A stretch of DNA of 64,000 nucleotides from Limimaricola cinnabarinus (GTDB lineage Bacteria > Pseudomonadota > Alphaproteobacteria > Rhodobacterales > Rhodobacteraceae), in contig NZ_KZ304953.1 of NCBI RefSeq assembly GCF_002723615.1, positions 63,362 through 127,361 of the forward strand. The letters run 5' to 3'. Position numbers and translations under genes: made by a program. Positions 4,567-25,411 of this stretch are shown here, piece by piece; position 1 is the stretch's first letter; each line of letters starts with the position of its first letter. The notes under the pieces were generated by a model. It did no database searches, was not told the DNA's origin, and saw only the letters and a list, made by a program, of their open reading frames with translations.

Positions 4567-5259
4567 ATGGATACGCTGTCCCGACTGACCCTTCTGACCC
4601 TCCCCGACATCGCCGCGTTGGCCTTGCTGGCGCTGAGCTACTGGGGGATCGGCTGGCGAATCGAGCATCCGGGGCGGCGGCCTTCGGTGACGGTATTGAT
4701 GGCGGAATACCGCCGCGAATGGATGCGCGGCTTCGTGGAGCGCGATCCGCGCATCTTCGACGCGCAGATCGTCGCCAGCCTGCGGCAGGGCACCTCGTTC
4801 CTCGCTTCGACCTGCCTTCTGGCGGTGGGCGGCGTGCTGGCGCTGATCGGCAATGTGGAGCCGTTGCAGGGCGTGGCCGAGGGGCTGGGTGGCGACACGC
4901 TCCCGGCGCTGCTGTGGCAGATCAAGCTGGTGCCGGTGGCGCTGCTGCTGACCCATGCCTTCCTGAAATTCGTCTGGGCGCAGCGGGTCTTCGGCTATTG
5001 TTCGGTGATGATGGCGGCGGTGCCCAATGACCCCGCCGATCCGCGCGCGATGCCGCGCGCGATGCAGGCGGCGGAGCTCAACATCCGCGCGGCGTGGAAC
5101 TTCAACCGCGGGCTGCGGGCGATGTATTTCGCGCTGGGCGCGGTGGTGTGGCTCCTTGGGCCATGGGCGCTGATGGCGGCGACGCTGGCGGTGCTGTGGC
5201 TGGTCTGGAGCCGGGAGTTCGCCTCCGTGCCCCGGGCGGTGCTCTTGGGCGAGGGCTGA
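4567..5259 (+). CDS. DUF599 family integral membrane protein
   Basis: The 230-residue protein has about four hydrophobic segments: residues about 14-30, 80-95, 115-132 and a pair near 185-220. The pattern of a short N-terminal helix, an RREWMR-containing cytoplasmic stretch and the FGYCSVMMAAVPN region matches the DUF599 family of small inner-membrane proteins. No biochemical function is known. I prefer the ATG at 4567 (MDTLSRLTLL) to the one at 4558 because it directly precedes the membrane helix. It is divergent from glcD (about 100 bases between starts) and converges with the membrane-protein operon, with a palindromic repeat between them. Confidence 0.85.
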   Translation: MDTLSRLTLLTLPDIAALALLALSYWGIGWRIEHPGRRPSVTVLMAEYRREWMRGFVERDPRIFDAQIVASLRQGTSFLASTCLLAVGGVLALIGNVEPLQGVAEGLGGDTLPALLWQIKLVPVALLLTHAFLKFVWAQRVFGYCSVMMAAVPNDPADPRAMPRAMQAAELNIRAAWNFNRGLRAMYFALGAVVWLLGPWALMAATLAVLWLVWSREFASVPRAVLLGEG

Positions 5260-5295
5260 GGGGGCTGCCGCCCCCGCCGCTGCGCGGCCCCCCGC

Positions 5296-5358
5296 GCGTA
5301 TTTGGCGAAAGATGAACAGGAGGGCGCGACGCCCCCGTTCATCTTTCTTCAAATACGC
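5296..5358. repeat. Palindromic repeat element, copy 1 (convergent junction)
   Basis: Left arm 5296-5317 (GCGTATTTG...GAAAGATGAAC) and right arm 5337-5358 are reverse complements over 22 bases with two mismatches. They are separated by about 19 bases that include a small GC hairpin. The right arm is followed by an ATCCCGACTTCTCCGC-like tail also found after copy 3. The element sits exactly between the stop codons of two convergent genes, so it could act as a bidirectional terminator or mRNA-end structure. It lacks a T-tract. Confidence 0.85.
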
Positions 5359-5376: not shown

Positions 5377-7452
5377 CTAGCGCCGCGCCTCGCGCAGCCA
5401 GGCGCCGATCATCAACGTCGCGGCGAAGATCAGCCAGAGCCAGGCCGGGAGCAGCGGCGTCACCGTGAGGTCGAGCGTGCGGTAGGCGCCGCGCGGGGTC
5501 AGCCCGATCCAGCCGCGCCCGGCGGCGGGGCGCCCCGCGCGCACCTCGCGCAAGGCCGGCAGCCCCTCCTCGATGCGCTTGATACCGCCGCGGGTCGGCG
5601 CGGTGATCTCTTCGAGCGCGTCGCCGCTTGCGATGGTTTCCTCGAACTCGCGCGGTGCCGCGGGGCCGAGCGCGATCACCGCCTCCTGATCGCGCTCCGA
5701 AAGACGGTAGAGCCCCATGCGCGGCGTGGCCCAGAGCGCCTCGAACCGGCCCGGTTCGACCTCTTCGAGCGGCACTTCCGTCTCATCGCCCTCCGGCCCG
5801 GTGACGGTGACGGGACCGATCTGTTCGGAAAGCGAGCGGCGCACGATCCGCATGGTCAGCCCCGAGGGCTCGGCCCAGAGCGCCTCTTCCTCGAGCTCGG
5901 GCTCCTTCATCATCCAGTGCGCCAGGCGGCGCAGCAGGTCGAGCTGGGGGCCGCCGCCATCATAGCCGCGCCCCCAGAGCCAGACCTGGTCCGAGGCCAG
6001 CAGCGCCACACGCCCCTCTCCCACGCGGTCGAGCGCGAGAAGCGGGCGTTCGCCCGGCCCGGTGAGGGCGATGGTGGCGCTCTGGGTCGGGTCGATTTCC
6101 ACCTGCCGGAACCAGCGGCCCCAGCCGGGCTTGAGCGGATCGCCCTCGGCATCGCGCCACGGATCGGCGAGGCCCGAGGTGACGGGGTGGCGCGTGCCAA
6201 GCTCGGTCAGCTCGGGGCGGAACGCCCGCTCGACCACCCGCGCGCTGGGCGCGCCCGGAAGCACGAAGCCCAGGGGGCTGCGGAAGATGCTCTCGGCACC
6301 CGCATATTCCGGCCCGGCGGTGACCAGCACCGCGCCGCCCTCTTCGACATAGCGGCCGACATTGGCGAAATATTCCGACGGCAGGATGCCGCGCCTGCGG
6401 TAGCGGTCGAAGACGATCAGGTCGAACTCGTCGATCTTCTCGATGAACAGCTCGCGGGTCGGAAAGGCGATGAGCGACAGCTCCTCGACCGGGACGCCGT
6501 CCTGCTTTTCGGGCGGGCGCAGGATGGTGAAATGCACCAGATCGACCGAAGGGTCGGATTTCAGCAGGTTGCGCCATGTCCGCTCGCCGGCATAGGGCTC
6601 GCCCGAGACCAGCAGCACCCGCAGCCTGTCGCGCACGCCGTTGATCTGCACCACGCTTTCGTTGTTGCGCGGCGTCAGCTCGCCCTCCACCTCCGGCGTG
6701 GCGAATTGCAGCACGTTCATGCCGCCATGCGGCAGCGCCACCGGCAGGCGGATGTCGCGCCCGAGCGGCACCTCGAAGCGCATCGGCTCGGCCCCGTCCA
6801 CGGCGATGGTGAGCGGCACGGGACCGGCGGCTTCGGGGGCGGCGCCGCTGTCCTCGATGCGCAGCGTCAGCTCCACTTCCTCCCCGAGGATCGCGAAGGC
6901 CGGGGCGTTGCGCACCACGAGGCGGCGGTCCCAGTCGCCCTCGCGCCCGCTGAGCAGAACATGGGCCGGGGCGGGCAGGTCGGGGGCGCGCGCGGCGTCG
7001 TGCAGGCGCCCATCGGTCAGAAGGACGATGCCCGCGACGCGGCCCAGGGGCTCTTCGGCCAGCGCCTCGGACAGCGCGGTCATCAGCCGCGTGCCGCCAT
7101 CCTGCGGCGCATCGCCGAGGCGCACCACCCGCAGCTCGGTGTTCTCGCGCGCGGCGATCTTCGCCGTGAGGTCGTCGAGCATGGCCTCGGTCTGCGCGGC
7201 GCGGTCCGAAAGGGTCTGGCTCGCGCTTTCGTCGACCACGGCGACCACGATGTCCGACAGGGGCTGACGCTCCTCGCGCTGCAGCGCCGGGTTGGCCAGA
7301 CCGGCGATCAGCGCGGCCCCGGCGAGGGCGCGCAGCCACCAGCCCGGCAGGCCGCGCCACAGCGCCAGCGCCACCACCAGCACCGTCAGCGCGACGAGTG
7401 CCCAGAGCGCGGGCCAGGGCAGGAGCGGATCGAAGATCACCGTGCCGGTCAT
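5377..7452 (-). CDS. Membrane-anchored VWA / amidotransferase-like protein of the MoxR operon
   Basis: This 691-residue protein has two hydrophobic N-terminal helices (about residues 13-32 and 38-52). Next comes a von Willebrand A-like stretch (IVVAVVDESASQ, GIVLLTDGRLHD), then a region resembling a class I glutamine-amidotransferase fold (LRVLLVSGEPYAGERTWRN, EEGGAVLVTAGPEY), and one C-terminal helix (LLPAWLWLIFAATLMIGAWL). The DESAS sequence replaces the canonical DxSxS metal site, so metal binding is uncertain. It is the last gene of moxR / DUF58 / DUF4159 / this gene and overlaps the DUF4159 stop. Such operons are thought to act in envelope or chaperone processes, but the role here is unknown. 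Confidence 0.75.
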   Translation of the reverse strand: MTGTVIFDPLLPWPALWALVALTVLVVALALWRGLPGWWLRALAGAALIAGLANPALQREERQPLSDIVVAVVDESASQTLSDRAAQTEAMLDDLTAKIAARENTELRVVRLGDAPQDGGTRLMTALSEALAEEPLGRVAGIVLLTDGRLHDAARAPDLPAPAHVLLSGREGDWDRRLVVRNAPAFAILGEEVELTLRIEDSGAAPEAAGPVPLTIAVDGAEPMRFEVPLGRDIRLPVALPHGGMNVLQFATPEVEGELTPRNNESVVQINGVRDRLRVLLVSGEPYAGERTWRNLLKSDPSVDLVHFTILRPPEKQDGVPVEELSLIAFPTRELFIEKIDEFDLIVFDRYRRRGILPSEYFANVGRYVEEGGAVLVTAGPEYAGAESIFRSPLGFVLPGAPSARVVERAFRPELTELGTRHPVTSGLADPWRDAEGDPLKPGWGRWFRQVEIDPTQSATIALTGPGERPLLALDRVGEGRVALLASDQVWLWGRGYDGGGPQLDLLRRLAHWMMKEPELEEEALWAEPSGLTMRIVRRSLSEQIGPVTVTGPEGDETEVPLEEVEPGRFEALWATPRMGLYRLSERDQEAVIALGPAAPREFEETIASGDALEEITAPTRGGIKRIEEGLPALREVRAGRPAAGRGWIGLTPRGAYRTLDLTVTPLLPAWLWLIFAATLMIGAWLREARR

Positions 7453-14559: not shown

Positions 14560-15345
14560 ATGACAGACAGCCGTGCCGCGATCGACGTGGCCTATGCCAA
14601 TGCCAGCCATATCCCCGGCGGCATGGAATATCCCGCGCGCTGGGCCGAGGCGGCGGCGGCGTTTCGCGAGCGCCATCCGCCCGAGGAGATCGCCTATGGG
14701 GCAGGCGCGCGCCAGCGGCTCGACCTGTTTCGCCCCGAAGGCGAAGCGAAGGGCGCGGTGATCTTCGTGCATGGCGGCTTCTGGAGGGCCTTCGACAAGT
14801 CGAGCTGGTCGCATCTCGCCGAAGGCGCGCTGGCGCATGGCTGGGCGGTGGCGATGCCCTCCTACACGCTGGCGCCAGAGGCGCGGATCGCGGCCATGAC
14901 CCGCGAGATCGAGGCGGCGATCGGCGCGGTGGCCGAAGCCGTGCCGGGGCCGCTGCGGCTTGCGGGTCATTCGGCGGGCGGGCATCTGGTGGCGCGCATG
15001 GCCTGCGCCGATCTTTCGCCGCCCTGGCGCGACCGGGTGGCGCGGATCGTGCCGATCTCGCCGCTGTCGGACCTGCGCCCGCTCATGGGGGCGACGATGA
15101 ACGACGACCTGCGGCTCGACCGGGAGGAGGCCGAGGCCGAAAGCCCGCTTTTGTGCGAGCAGGTCGATCTGCCGATGACGGTCTGGGTCGGCGCGGCGGA
15201 GCGGCCCGCCTTCATCGATCAGGCCCGCTGGCTGGCCGAGCGGCGCGGCTGCGAGCTGGTGGAAGCGCCGGGGCGGCACCATTTCGACGTGATCGAGGAG
15301 CTGGCCGAACCCGACAGCCCGCTGACCGAGACGCTGTTGGGCTGA
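14560..15345 (+). CDS. Alpha/beta hydrolase, esterase / kynurenine-formamidase-like
   Basis: From the ATG at 14560 (ribosome site GGGAGAG) the protein has 261 residues. It shows an oxyanion-hole motif HGGFWRAF, the nucleophile elbow GHSAGGH, and a catalytic histidine in RHHFDVIEEL near the C-terminus. The HGG(F/Y)W, GHSAG and HHFD combination resembles the hormone-sensitive-lipase-like kynurenine formamidases, but no kyn genes are nearby, so the substrate is open. It is divergent from gabD and convergent with the P1 peptidase across a palindromic repeat. Confidence 0.82.
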   Translation: MTDSRAAIDVAYANASHIPGGMEYPARWAEAAAAFRERHPPEEIAYGAGARQRLDLFRPEGEAKGAVIFVHGGFWRAFDKSSWSHLAEGALAHGWAVAMPSYTLAPEARIAAMTREIEAAIGAVAEAVPGPLRLAGHSAGGHLVARMACADLSPPWRDRVARIVPISPLSDLRPLMGATMNDDLRLDREEAEAESPLLCEQVDLPMTVWVGAAERPAFIDQARWLAERRGCELVEAPGRHHFDVIEELAEPDSPLTETLLG

Positions 15346-15357
15346 GCGCCGCCCCTG

Positions 15358-15446
15358 GTTCATCTTTCCGAAAATACGCATCGCCCGACCCGCCACGGGG
15401 CGCTCCGGTTCAATGTCGGGATTTGCGTATTTGAAGAAAGATGAAA
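15358..15446. repeat. Palindromic repeat element, copy 2 (arms in opposite order)
   Basis: The left arm 15358-15379 reads GTTCATCTTTC...AAATACGC and the right arm 15425-15446 reads GCGTATTTGAAGAAAGATGAA. The same arm is therefore used as in copies 1 and 3, but with the GATGAA ends facing outwards and a 45-base spacer. The TCGGGATTT block next to the right arm is also conserved beside the other copies. It lies between the stop codons of the convergent hydrolase and P1 peptidase genes. Confidence 0.82.
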
Positions 15447-15450
15447 GGGA

Positions 15451-16434
15451 TCAGCGCCCGAACCGCTCCTGCCAGGAGGGCAGCGGCCCGCCGGGGGCCG
15501 CGTGATACACCGCGCGCGCGATGGCGCGGGCAAGGCAGGTGGAGGCGGCATGGCCGAGCCAGAGCGCCTCGGCGGGGCCGCCGAGCGGGCGCGCCCCGGT
15601 CGAGGCGGCAAAGACCAGATCGCCGTCGAAGGGGGTATGCGCCGGGACCAGCGCCCGCGCGATGCCGTCCTGCGCCGCGACCGCCATGCGCCGGCAGCCC
15701 GCCTTGTCGAGCGCGGCGTCGGTGGCGACGATGGCGAGGGTCGTGGCCTCGCCGGGTGCGGCGAGCTTGGTGGGCGGCGGGCCAGGGGGCGGCATCGCAG
15801 AGCCCAGCCCACCGAACTCGGCCCCGATCTCCCATGGCGCCGCCCAGAAATGCGGGCCACCGCCGACCGTGGCCGAGCCGACCGCGTTCACCGCCACCAG
15901 CGCGCCGACGCGGTGCCCGCTCTCCAGCACCAGCGAGGCGGTGCCGATGCCGCCCGCCAGCGTGGCCGTGGTGGCGCCATGGCCCGCGCCGTGGCTGCCT
16001 TCGGCGACATCCGCCCCCGCCATCTCCAGCGCCTTGCGCCCCAACGTGGCGTAGGGGTTCGCCGTCCAGCCCTTGTCGCCGCCATTGCCGAGATCGAACA
16101 GGATCGCCGCCGGCACGATCGGCACGCGCTGCCCCGCCGCCTCGAAGCCGCGCCCCATGGCGCGCAGCCCCTCGGCCACGCCCGAGGCGGCATCGAGCCC
16201 GAAGGCGGAGCCCCCCGACAGCACCAGCGCATCCACCGCCGGAACGAGCCGGTCGGGGGCCAGAAGCTCGGTCTCGCGCGTGCCGGGCGCGCCGCCCATC
16301 ACGTCGACCGCGGCGGCAAAGGGCGCGCGGGCCGTCAGCACCGTCACGCCCGAGCGCAGCGCCGCGTCATGCGCCTGTCCGACCAGCAGGCCCGGAACAT
16401 CGGTGATCGCATCGCGCGGACCGGGCCGCATCAT
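15451..16434 (-). CDS. P1 family peptidase (DmpA / NylC-type N-terminal nucleophile hydrolase)
   Basis: The start ATG at 16434 (MMRPGPRDAITDVPGLLVGQ, with GAGG upstream) gives 327 residues. The ITDVPG(L)VGQA N-terminus, LSGGSAFGLDAASGV and TANPYATLGRKALEMAG are hallmarks of the P1/DmpA family. The nucleophile threonine of the self-cleavage site is in GEATTLAIVATDA. Members are aminopeptidases or cyclic-amide hydrolases made as autoprocessed alpha/beta chains; the specificity is not predictable here. No signal peptide is seen. Confidence 0.9.
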   Translation of the reverse strand: MMRPGPRDAITDVPGLLVGQAHDAALRSGVTVLTARAPFAAAVDVMGGAPGTRETELLAPDRLVPAVDALVLSGGSAFGLDAASGVAEGLRAMGRGFEAAGQRVPIVPAAILFDLGNGGDKGWTANPYATLGRKALEMAGADVAEGSHGAGHGATTATLAGGIGTASLVLESGHRVGALVAVNAVGSATVGGGPHFWAAPWEIGAEFGGLGSAMPPPGPPPTKLAAPGEATTLAIVATDAALDKAGCRRMAVAAQDGIARALVPAHTPFDGDLVFAASTGARPLGGPAEALWLGHAASTCLARAIARAVYHAAPGGPLPSWQERFGR

Positions 16435-19154: not shown

Positions 19155-19841
19155 ATGACCGCTTTCGACCGCACTCTCAAGATCGCCCCCTCGATCCTCT
19201 CCGCCGATTTCGCGGATTTCGGCGCGGAGGTCCGCGCCATCGAGGCGCAGGGCGCCGACTGGGTCCATGTCGACGTGATGGACGGGCATTTCGTGCCCAA
19301 CATCACCTTCGGCCCGCAGCTCGTCCGCGCGATCCGGCCGCATGTGAAGACGGTGATGGACGTGCATCTGATGATCGCGCCGGTCGATCCCTATATCGAC
19401 GCCTTCGCCGATGCAGGCACCGACATCCTGACCGCCCATGTCGAGGCGGGGCCGCACATCCACCGCACGCTGCAGGCGATCCGCGCGGCGGGGATGAAGG
19501 CGGGCGTCGCGCTCAACCCCGGCACGCCCGCGGAGGCTGTGGCGCCGCTGCTCGACGACGTGGATCTCGTGCTGGCCATGACCGTGAACCCGGGCTTTGG
19601 CGGGCAGAAGTTCATCCATGCCACGCTCGACAAGATCGCTGCCCTGCGGGAGATGATCGGCGACCGGGAGATCCATCTCGAGGTGGATGGCGGCGTCGAT
19701 ACGAGCACCGCGCCGCTGGTGGCTAGGGCGGGGGCCGACGCGTTGGTCGCGGGCTCGGCGGTGTTTCGCGGCGGCTCGGTCGAAGCGGCGCAGGTCTACG
19801 GCGAAAACATCGCGGCGATCCGCGCCGCGGCGCAGGGCTGA
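19155..19841 (+). CDS. rpe: Ribulose-phosphate 3-epimerase
   Basis: The 228-residue TIM-barrel protein shows [15 protein letters not shown] at the N-terminus, [19 protein letters not shown] with metal ligands, [25 protein letters not shown] and a C-terminal [11 protein letters not shown] phosphate-binding segment. These are all standard for Rpe. It interconverts ribulose-5-phosphate and xylulose-5-phosphate in the pentose phosphate pathway (and the Calvin cycle where present). The length is usual for the family. The gene stands alone and ends at a palindromic repeat. Confidence 0.97.
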
Positions 19842-19854
19842 GACCGCGCGCCAT

Positions 19855-19918
19855 GCGTATTTGAGAAAAGATGAAAGGGAAGGGCGCGCCATCCCCTTCA
19901 TCTTTCTTAGAAATACGC
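19855..19918. repeat. Palindromic repeat element, copy 3 (convergent junction)
   Basis: Left arm 19855-19876 (GCGTATTTG...AAAAGATGAA) and right arm 19897-19918 (TTCATCTTTC...AAATACGC) form an inverted repeat in the same order as copy 1, with about 20 bases between them. The right arm is followed by AAATCCCGGCCTCTCCGC, close to the tail of copy 1. The element lies between the stops of rpe and the uronate dehydrogenase gene. Confidence 0.85.
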
Positions 19919-19963: not shown

Positions 19964-20797
19964 TCAGCTCCCCTCGCTCATCCGCCGGATCGCCTCGACC
20001 CCGCTTTCGCCCAGCGGCACCACCGCGAAGGGACCGCCGAGCGAGCGCTGCGCCCGGTCCGAGGGGTCGGGCGTCCTTTGCGGCGGCAGCAGCCGGTCGG
20101 CCCAATCCTCGGCATTGTCGCGTGGCCGGTAGCCGAGAAACGAGACCTTGTGATTCGAAACCGAGGCCCGGCTGTTGGCCGAGACGCCCCAGGCGACGGT
20201 GAAACCGGTGACCGGCGTGGTGATAGAGGCCTCGACCAGCCGCGCCAGATCGCCGTAGGAGAGCCATGTGTGCAGTGCCCGCGCGTTCTGCGGCTCGGGC
20301 GTGCAGGACATGATCCGCAGGCAGACCGCCTCCAGCCCCCGCTTCTCCCAGAACATCCCGGCCATGTCCTCGGCAAAGCATTTCGACAGGCCGTAGAAGC
20401 TGTCGGGCTTGTGAGCCACGTCCGTGTCATGGCCGGCCATCGTCTCCTGCAGGCCCACGGCATGGACCGAGGAGGCATAGACCACGCGGCGCGCGCCTGC
20501 GCGATGCGCCGCCTCCCAGACCGTGTAGGCGCCGATGTAGTTCGGGCCGAGCAGTTCCTCGAAGGGCCGCTCGTCGGGGATCGCGCCGAAATGCACGACC
20601 ATCTCGGCCCCCTCCATCAGCGACTCGATCGCCGCGAGATCGGCGAGGTCGGCCTGCACGAAACGCTCGTTTCCCAGCAGCTCGGCCGGGGCTTCGGCGA
20701 TGTCGGTGGACAAAAGCTCGCGGGCGAGCTTCGAGAGCGGCTCGCGCAGCTGCGAGCCGAGCGCGCCGCAGGCGCCGGTGAGGACGATCTTCTTCAT
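19964..20797 (-). CDS. NAD-dependent uronate dehydrogenase-like oxidoreductase
   Basis: The 277-residue SDR/epimerase-fold protein has nucleotide-binding TGACGALGSQLR, the active-site YGLSK motif (SFYGLSKCFAEDMA) and the characteristic CLRIMSCTPEPQNARAL segment. The blocks PNYIGAYTVWEAA, VVYASSVHAVG and LSYGDLARLVEAS align well with the bacterial uronate dehydrogenase Udh, which oxidises glucuronate or galacturonate to the aldarolactone. The pairing with a FAD oxidase gene 9 bases upstream is unusual for a uronate pathway, so the true substrate is uncertain. Confidence 0.75.
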   Translation of the reverse strand: MKKIVLTGACGALGSQLREPLSKLARELLSTDIAEAPAELLGNERFVQADLADLAAIESLMEGAEMVVHFGAIPDERPFEELLGPNYIGAYTVWEAAHRAGARRVVYASSVHAVGLQETMAGHDTDVAHKPDSFYGLSKCFAEDMAGMFWEKRGLEAVCLRIMSCTPEPQNARALHTWLSYGDLARLVEASITTPVTGFTVAWGVSANSRASVSNHKVSFLGYRPRDNAEDWADRLLPPQRTPDPSDRAQRSLGGPFAVVPLGESGVEAIRRMSEGS

Positions 20798-25335: not shown

Positions 25336-25411
25336 GGGGCCTTAGCTCAGCTGGGAGAGCGCCTGCATGGCATGCAGGAGGTCAGGGGTTCGATCCCCCT
25401 AGGCTCCACCA
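25336..25411 (+). tRNA. tRNA-Ala (anticodon GGC)
   Basis: The 76-base gene folds into a full cloverleaf. The acceptor stem GGGGCCT pairs with AGGCTCC (one G-T pair), the D-arm contains AGCTCAGCTGGGAGAGC, and the anticodon stem CCTGC/GCAGG holds the loop ATGGCAT with GGC at positions 34-36. The T-arm is GGGGTTCGATCCCCC. The discriminator is A and the CCA end is encoded (25409-25411). The isoacceptor reads GCC and GCU. Confidence 0.97.

Follow-up and report, generated by a model that had tools for sequence, protein, structure and literature searches.

A dispersed gene-end repeat of Limimaricola cinnabarinus and its candidate link to a small-RNA-like locus of Rhodobacterales

What do palindromic repeats do at the ends of bacterial genes? 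The question is raised by a stretch of 64,000 nucleotides from Limimaricola cinnabarinus (contig NZ_KZ304953.1, positions 63,362 to 127,361; hereafter the window), in which a sequence-only reading had picked out three copies of a palindromic element between convergent genes and had taken them for a dispersed bidirectional terminator or stabiliser of mRNA 3' ends. We recover the three copies to within one base of where they had been placed (5296-5358, 15359-15445 and 19855-19918), and our own gene caller returns the eight convergent junctions of the window: the element occupies three, genes overlap at two, and three are of other kinds. Followed through the source genome and its relatives, the element resolves into a constant block and a word; the latter is rewritten from genome to genome while the sites stay in place, and is shared with a small-RNA-like locus. 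We tentatively favour the view that an RNA-linked recognition system of Rhodobacterales has these elements, roughly 70 in the chromosome, as its cognate sites, with GTATTT as the constant anchor.

An arm dispersed at gene ends

In the source genome (3.8 Mb; G000 below, other G numbers being related genomes and L numbers sequence stretches), the pattern GTATTT-N4-AAAGATGAA occurs exactly 88 times, against no occurrence of the same pattern read backwards. Permitting five spacer bases or one mismatch yields 92 arms at 69 sites, or about one site per 55 kb; the largest number of arms among the genomes listed is 113. The sites comprise 46 single arms, 16 pairs with the anchors outermost and seven pairs in the other order, and as two-thirds of them (46 of 69) are single-armed, the unit is the arm rather than the palindrome. 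Over its 18 fixed bases, GCGTATTT-N3-GAAAGATGAA is exact at 86 of 96 places, with one mismatch at four, two at five and three at one (control 0), and a minor arm form, GGGAAAATGAA, accounts for four of the five two-mismatch places. As GCGTATTT-NN-GGGAAAATGAA, this minor form lies at C1:646037, C3:51132, C9:114427 and C11:68025 of G000, and it partners an ordinary arm at no fewer than two places. The three-base spacer is free (GAA, GGA, GAG, TCG and others); hence, the arm sequence is strictly kept except within its spacer. The tails of the element show two common forms genome-wide, GGATTTGC and CGCCATGC; the CCCGA tail that had been described as conserved is exact in two of the three window copies, but the third has CCCGG. 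Two of the 69 sites lie within called genes (C6:63858 and C10:81872). The large contigs C5 and C8 carry no site, and a RepC search bearing on whether such contigs are plasmids gave no match.

Junction classes, assigned with a simple codon-usage gene caller, place 25 sites between convergent, 36 between codirectional and eight between divergent genes. Intergenic length predicts 5.6, 35.8 and 27.6, respectively, from junctions lacking the element, a background that overstates the convergent excess: with the window's own intergenic share, about 10-11 convergent sites are expected and the excess is still more than two-fold. Of 35 cases in codirectional gaps, 26 have the element closer to the stop of the upstream gene (p 0.006), and some codirectional sites occupy intergenic gaps of some 40 bases; the 26 single arms in such gaps divide 17 to nine between the two senses by hand count. 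The proposed location at convergent junctions is thus borne out by all three window copies and by genome-wide enrichment, though the family is not confined there, with 36 of its 69 sites codirectional. The genome-wide arm search and orientation tally that had been suggested as a check similarly show convergent junctions enriched and divergent ones depleted, but codirectional ones at their expected frequency. Taken together, the family is mainly a gene-end element and not solely a convergent one. The claim stands that this is an AT-rich repeat, dispersed and non-random, with a tie to gene ends, given the 92 arms, the empty control and the enrichment at gene ends.

A literature search returned no title or abstract opening on this repeat, most subscription papers lying outside its reach.

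Words rewritten in place and a small-RNA-like locus

Comparison of eight genomes of the genus reveals how the arms change. In G001, the sampling took in 20 stretches around the majority of 40 listed arms (of 77), and all 24 compared junctions that have the element in G000 have it in both; across 30 arms, none of 480 core cells is changed, as against 19 of 90 in the spacer and 11-17% in the flanks. G003 has 112 arms, of which nearly all of the 100 listed bear one ten-letter word, GAATGGTGAA. For this genome, 60 of 65 planned stretches were compared, two more being already largely contained in L180 and three being dropped. At 272 orthologous junctions of G000 and G003, the element is present in both at 51, a lower bound on the junctions shared by the two genomes, in G003 only at two and in neither at 219; the absence of junctions with the element only in G000 follows from the choice of G003 stretches by their elements, and the G001 stretches were likewise chosen around theirs. 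Of the pair of junctions counted as G003-only, one carries the minor form in G000. From G000 to G003, over 64 arms, position 12 is changed in 61 and position 14 in 56, while every other core position is changed in at most eight; the spacer differs in 91 of 192 cells and the flanks in 23-32%. Further words occur in G005 and G002, and others across the family and order, for example CAAAAATGAA in G137 and GAAAAAAGAA in G363, whereas in many family and order genomes the patterns used detected no dispersed word. Where present, the word is near-uniform within a genome and different between genomes. In an unrooted tree of the genus built on five proteins, too small to interpret, the genomes do not group by these dialects. 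At the window junctions 5259 and 19841, G006 and G007 display the G000 dialect, but their arms are altered and exact copies are scarcer (39 and 27), as though constraint had been relaxed; at one site of G007 the two arms have changed together.

One site of G000, C21:6436-6628, has about 150 bases between its arms. These enclose a third copy of the word, which changes with the dialect (GGAAGATGAA in G000, GAGTGGTGAA in G003) beside a stretch identical in both genomes. The inner part matches 158 of 248 genomes of the family (E 0.01) at one to three loci per genome, a maximum of three candidates per genome having been scored; 51 loci were read in detail. On one strand they present, in order, CGGUACAGGCUGGNGAGCCGAUGACCG, a hairpin whose inner loop is asymmetric, about 11 bases, and a strong hairpin. 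Pairing in the first hairpin holds throughout (459 of 459 cells), two of its pairs show compensatory change, and its 20 G.U cells fix the strand; the second hairpin has a mean z of -2.0 and lies below -1 in 35 of the 51 loci. In 30 of 51 loci, as against 35 of 1020 shuffles, a TTAA-N7-TTAA box, similar to a CtrA site and with no more than one mismatch, stands up to 60 bases upstream, most often at -38. Arms lie close by in 48 of the 51 loci, in many on both sides. The Rfam 15 covariance models gave no match to the G000 locus up to E 1, and none of the papers listed by the literature search printed the scaffold words, except for an 11-base chance match in a CRISPR-Cas13b paper.

The contexts of the locus vary, with common neighbors being either genes for acyl-CoA dehydrogenase, glutathione transferase and thiolase or one for an ABC transporter (families assigned for the G000 neighbors and named by reading of the sequence in other genomes). 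A replicon of Paracoccus denitrificans carries the locus with the arm word GAACGAAGAAG and the RNA word GAACGGAGAAG. A replicon of Azospirillum brasilense (L330) has the scaffold hairpin and a hairpin downstream, without GTATTT arms in the stretch shown; this occurrence outside Rhodobacterales suggests that the RNA may predate the site system. A small open reading frame of 56 residues without a Pfam match adjoins one locus (L114, 4209-4379), and relatives of it occur at 13 of the 30 loci L279-L308. A phage origin was considered and rejected: the exact scaffold pattern is found in none of the viral contigs, five stretches of which show an own-dialect site pattern, and the G166 locus was not found in the phage collection.

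Pairing between RNA word and sites, and the rival accounts

The ten bases that follow the first hairpin were compared with the nearby GTATTT arm at 49 loci, two of the 51 being dropped as no arm was found, and one of those kept (L319) having its compared arm about 210 bases off, possibly by chance. The two differ at one base in 42 loci, at none in three and at two in four. In 47 of the 50 differences, the arm has A and the RNA has G, a change that leaves a G.U pair when the RNA pairs with the TTCATC strand, the RNA word having the sense of the GTATTT strand. The loci agree more closely with their own arms than with the arms found at other loci (9.76 versus 7.54 of 11, p 5e-5). The dispersed sites are a separate matter from pairing within a locus: in seven of 12 genomes with a listed dispersed word, a guide that was read can pair with it at all ten bases, counting G.U. 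G005 has two RNA-like loci (L280 and L315) with different words, each matching its own arms, and the word of the second is near one of the dispersed words of that genome. That most loci have a single G.U place could reflect harm done by a full match, or else an avoidance of perfect inverted repeats in the DNA. The RNA could not pair with the mRNA that 17 of the 26 codirectional single sites would yield, which argues against those mRNAs as the partner and in favor of DNA.

We divide the site into the constant GTATTT, a free N3 and a ten-base word common to the RNA; usually with one A-to-G change, this word forms the stretch between the two hairpins of the small-RNA-like locus, often behind the CtrA-like box. 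On the favored reading, the RNA would be made and its partner would be the TTCATC strand, A-to-G changes giving G.U pairs; a protein would read GTATTT, and their binding would punctuate or insulate transcription at gene ends. In its fullest form this becomes a more doubtful proposal, to which we give distinctly less credence than to the cognate sites as such: that an RNA-guided ribonucleoprotein punctuates the chromosomes of Rhodobacterales, with guides of about ten bases, some of them on RNAs likely to be CtrA-controlled, bringing a GTATTT-reading protein to tens of gene-end sites, and with several guide-site pairs per genome whose guides and sites change together, aided by G.U pairs.

Several points weigh against an RNA-linked system. 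Five of the 12 genomes (G005, G058, G096, G018 and G115) lack a fully matching guide among the guides read, with one of several RNA-like copies read for some of them; the dispersed words of G005 and G115 are mixed, and one of these served as the reference word. In G000 itself, one of three RNA-like copies was read. The observed total of matches between dispersed word and guide was reached in none of 20000 permutations, but permutation values overstate the certainty, as related genomes are not independent. A locus with arms on both sides could also owe its match to a stem within one transcript. Finally, both the transcript and a protein partner that reads GTATTT are postulated, and an effect on gene ends is inferred from position.

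A DNA-binding protein of shifting specificity might alone read both blocks, leaving the RNA as a decoy or its word with some other role. A constant GTATTT and a word at fixed spacing do resemble a bipartite protein site, the sites are free in orientation (the 17-to-nine division noted above), and the word in the RNA reads in the sense of one of the two site strands; nevertheless, such a protein gives no reason for 47 of the 50 differences between RNA and site to run from A to G with pairing kept through G.U, nor for one genome to hold several loci with different words, each matching its own arms, and we judge it unlikely. Least likely of all, in our estimate, is a repeat homogenized by drive, be it a mobile palindrome, short-tract conversion or an uptake-like process with dialects, of which the RNA-like locus would be a full-length member bearing the same arms. 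Dialects only a few bases apart, the great excess of exact copies over near-misses, and the arms beside 48 of 51 RNA-like loci are what such a process might leave. Yet the positions appear conserved within the genus, 24 of 24 being shared with G001 and 51 with G003. A mobile miniature inverted-repeat transposable element would show recent insertions and positions that differ between close relatives, but the stretches compared were picked around the relative's elements. The N3 inside the repeat is not homogenized either, which rules out gene conversion as the sole cause. The Y1 tyrosine transposase (PF01797) was found in one of the eight genus genomes (G007) and in none of the other seven, G000 and G003 included, with control genomes positive, which excludes an identity with the repetitive extragenic palindromic (REP) elements and their associated transposases (RAYT). 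One site per 55 kb is also far below the numbers of uptake sequences.

The terminator or 3' stabilizer with which the inquiry began would explain sequence identity by a preference of RNA polymerase or of a 3'-end factor. It draws support from the convergent enrichment and the nearness to stops, from a subset of arms directly behind a strong hairpin, and from two relatives without the element that carry other hairpins at one window junction. Hairpins abutting the T-rich (TTCATC) side are slightly stronger than the control (mean z of -0.63 to -0.81 for arms in the gene-end sense versus -0.39), and this hairpin-preceded subset may end transcription. As a general account, it is not supported. More than half of the sites (36 of 69) are codirectional. 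Ordinary terminators are not lacking at ends with the element, canonical ones being found at 18 of 48 convergent ends with it versus 13 of 47 without, and several of these hits are the element's own arms behind a hairpin. At orthologous junctions the relatives have TTCACCATTC or CACTTCACTC where G000 has TTCATCTTTC; hence, the T tract is not kept in other dialects. Only one of the 16 anchor-outside pairs has identical spacers, so in the other 15 a perfect stem is not preserved. The canonical-terminator scan, the arm-adjacent hairpins and the dialects at orthologous junctions thus leave the plain terminator fitting a subset only, and as an explanation of the family we regard it as quite improbable.

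How, then, would an RNA-linked site compare with known systems? The DNA uptake sequences of Neisseriaceae likewise have dialects: a short motif near-exact within each genome, one or two bases apart between relatives, and often in inverted pairs at gene ends. Our family shares their uniformity within a genome; however, uptake sequences number more than a thousand copies, whereas here there are about 90 arms instead of hundreds to thousands, nearly all of them intergenic, with a free internal spacer and a matching small-RNA-like locus. REP elements and the bacterial interspersed mosaic elements that they compose are comparable in being intergenic, in occurring as singles and inverted pairs and in being enriched at gene ends. 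Unlike these palindromes, the single arm, which makes up 46 of 69 sites, has a non-self-complementary core and does not fold on itself, and the word is rewritten in place at conserved positions. In TnpB/Cas12-type systems, the DNA has an anchor and then the word, and the RNA a scaffold and then the guide. The same order is seen on paper here, as in TnpB, TldR and Cas12, with a constant motif 5' of a guide-sense DNA word, a 5' scaffold, and a short 3' guide, as far as can be read from sequence. The differences are the three free bases between anchor and word, the tens of native sites and the usual single G.U pair; no protein of this kind was found, no search aimed at a RuvC-type effector having been made. 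The CtrA-controlled trans-acting small RNAs of alphaproteobacteria offer a further parallel, in a pair of hairpins separated by about 11 bases that many predicted folds leave unpaired, and in an upstream CtrA-like box (30 of 51 loci). They differ from our case in that the partner sites here would be dispersed DNA repeats in both orientations, with 17 of 26 codirectional singles giving a non-pairing mRNA.

The window copies and the meaning of the family

All three window copies consist of two inverted arms of the form GCGTATTT-N3-GAAAGATGAA, each copy within a convergent junction. In sites 1 and 3, the anchor GTATTT is outermost and a GC-rich center separates the arms, while in site 2 the order is reversed (TTCATC..AAATACGC first) around a long loop; the element thus has two arrangements. 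Site 1 is made up of a first arm, GCGTATTT-GGC-GAAAGATGAA, on the plus strand (5296..5316), the center, to which no strand is assigned (5317..5337), and a second arm with the spacer GAA on the minus strand (5338..5358). It lies between a plus-strand gene for a DUF599 protein (4699..5259) and a minus-strand gene for a 691-residue protein without a Pfam match (5377..7452). A second, GC-rich inverted repeat (GGGGGCTGCCGCCCCC-like) adjoins the anchor side of some arms, here at 5260-5297 and in G000 also at C19:51017, C13:46881 and C16:26177. In site 2, the first arm (15359..15379, minus strand) has the spacer TCG and the second (15425..15445, plus strand) GAA; the flanking genes code for an alpha/beta hydrolase (14560..15345, plus strand) and a peptidase S58 family protein (15451..16434, minus strand). 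The first arm of site 3, GCGTATTT-GAG-AAAAGATGAA (19855..19875, plus strand), has one mismatch, and the second (19897..19918, minus strand) has a spacer longer by one base. This site is framed by genes for a ribulose-phosphate 3-epimerase family protein (19155..19841, plus strand) and an NAD-dependent epimerase/dehydratase family protein (19964..20797, minus strand). The sole Rfam match in the window is a tRNA-Ala with the anticodon GGC at 25336-25411.

To our knowledge, a two-part code, in which a constant anchor is joined to a word shared with a small RNA and rewritten genome-wide with its sites in place, has no described counterpart. That the word and the exposed stretch of the putative RNA change together suggests an RNA-linked marking system in bacterial chromosomes. 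Even if the link to the RNA should be indirect, the coordinated rewriting at 51 orthologous junctions of two congeners makes a clean case of co-evolution between many sites and a shared recognizer, and one open to testing in related species in culture, Paracoccus denitrificans among them. Should the RNA prove to be made and required, the family would represent an endogenous RNA-directed marking of the ends of bacterial genes, of which related species would hold natural orthogonal variants.
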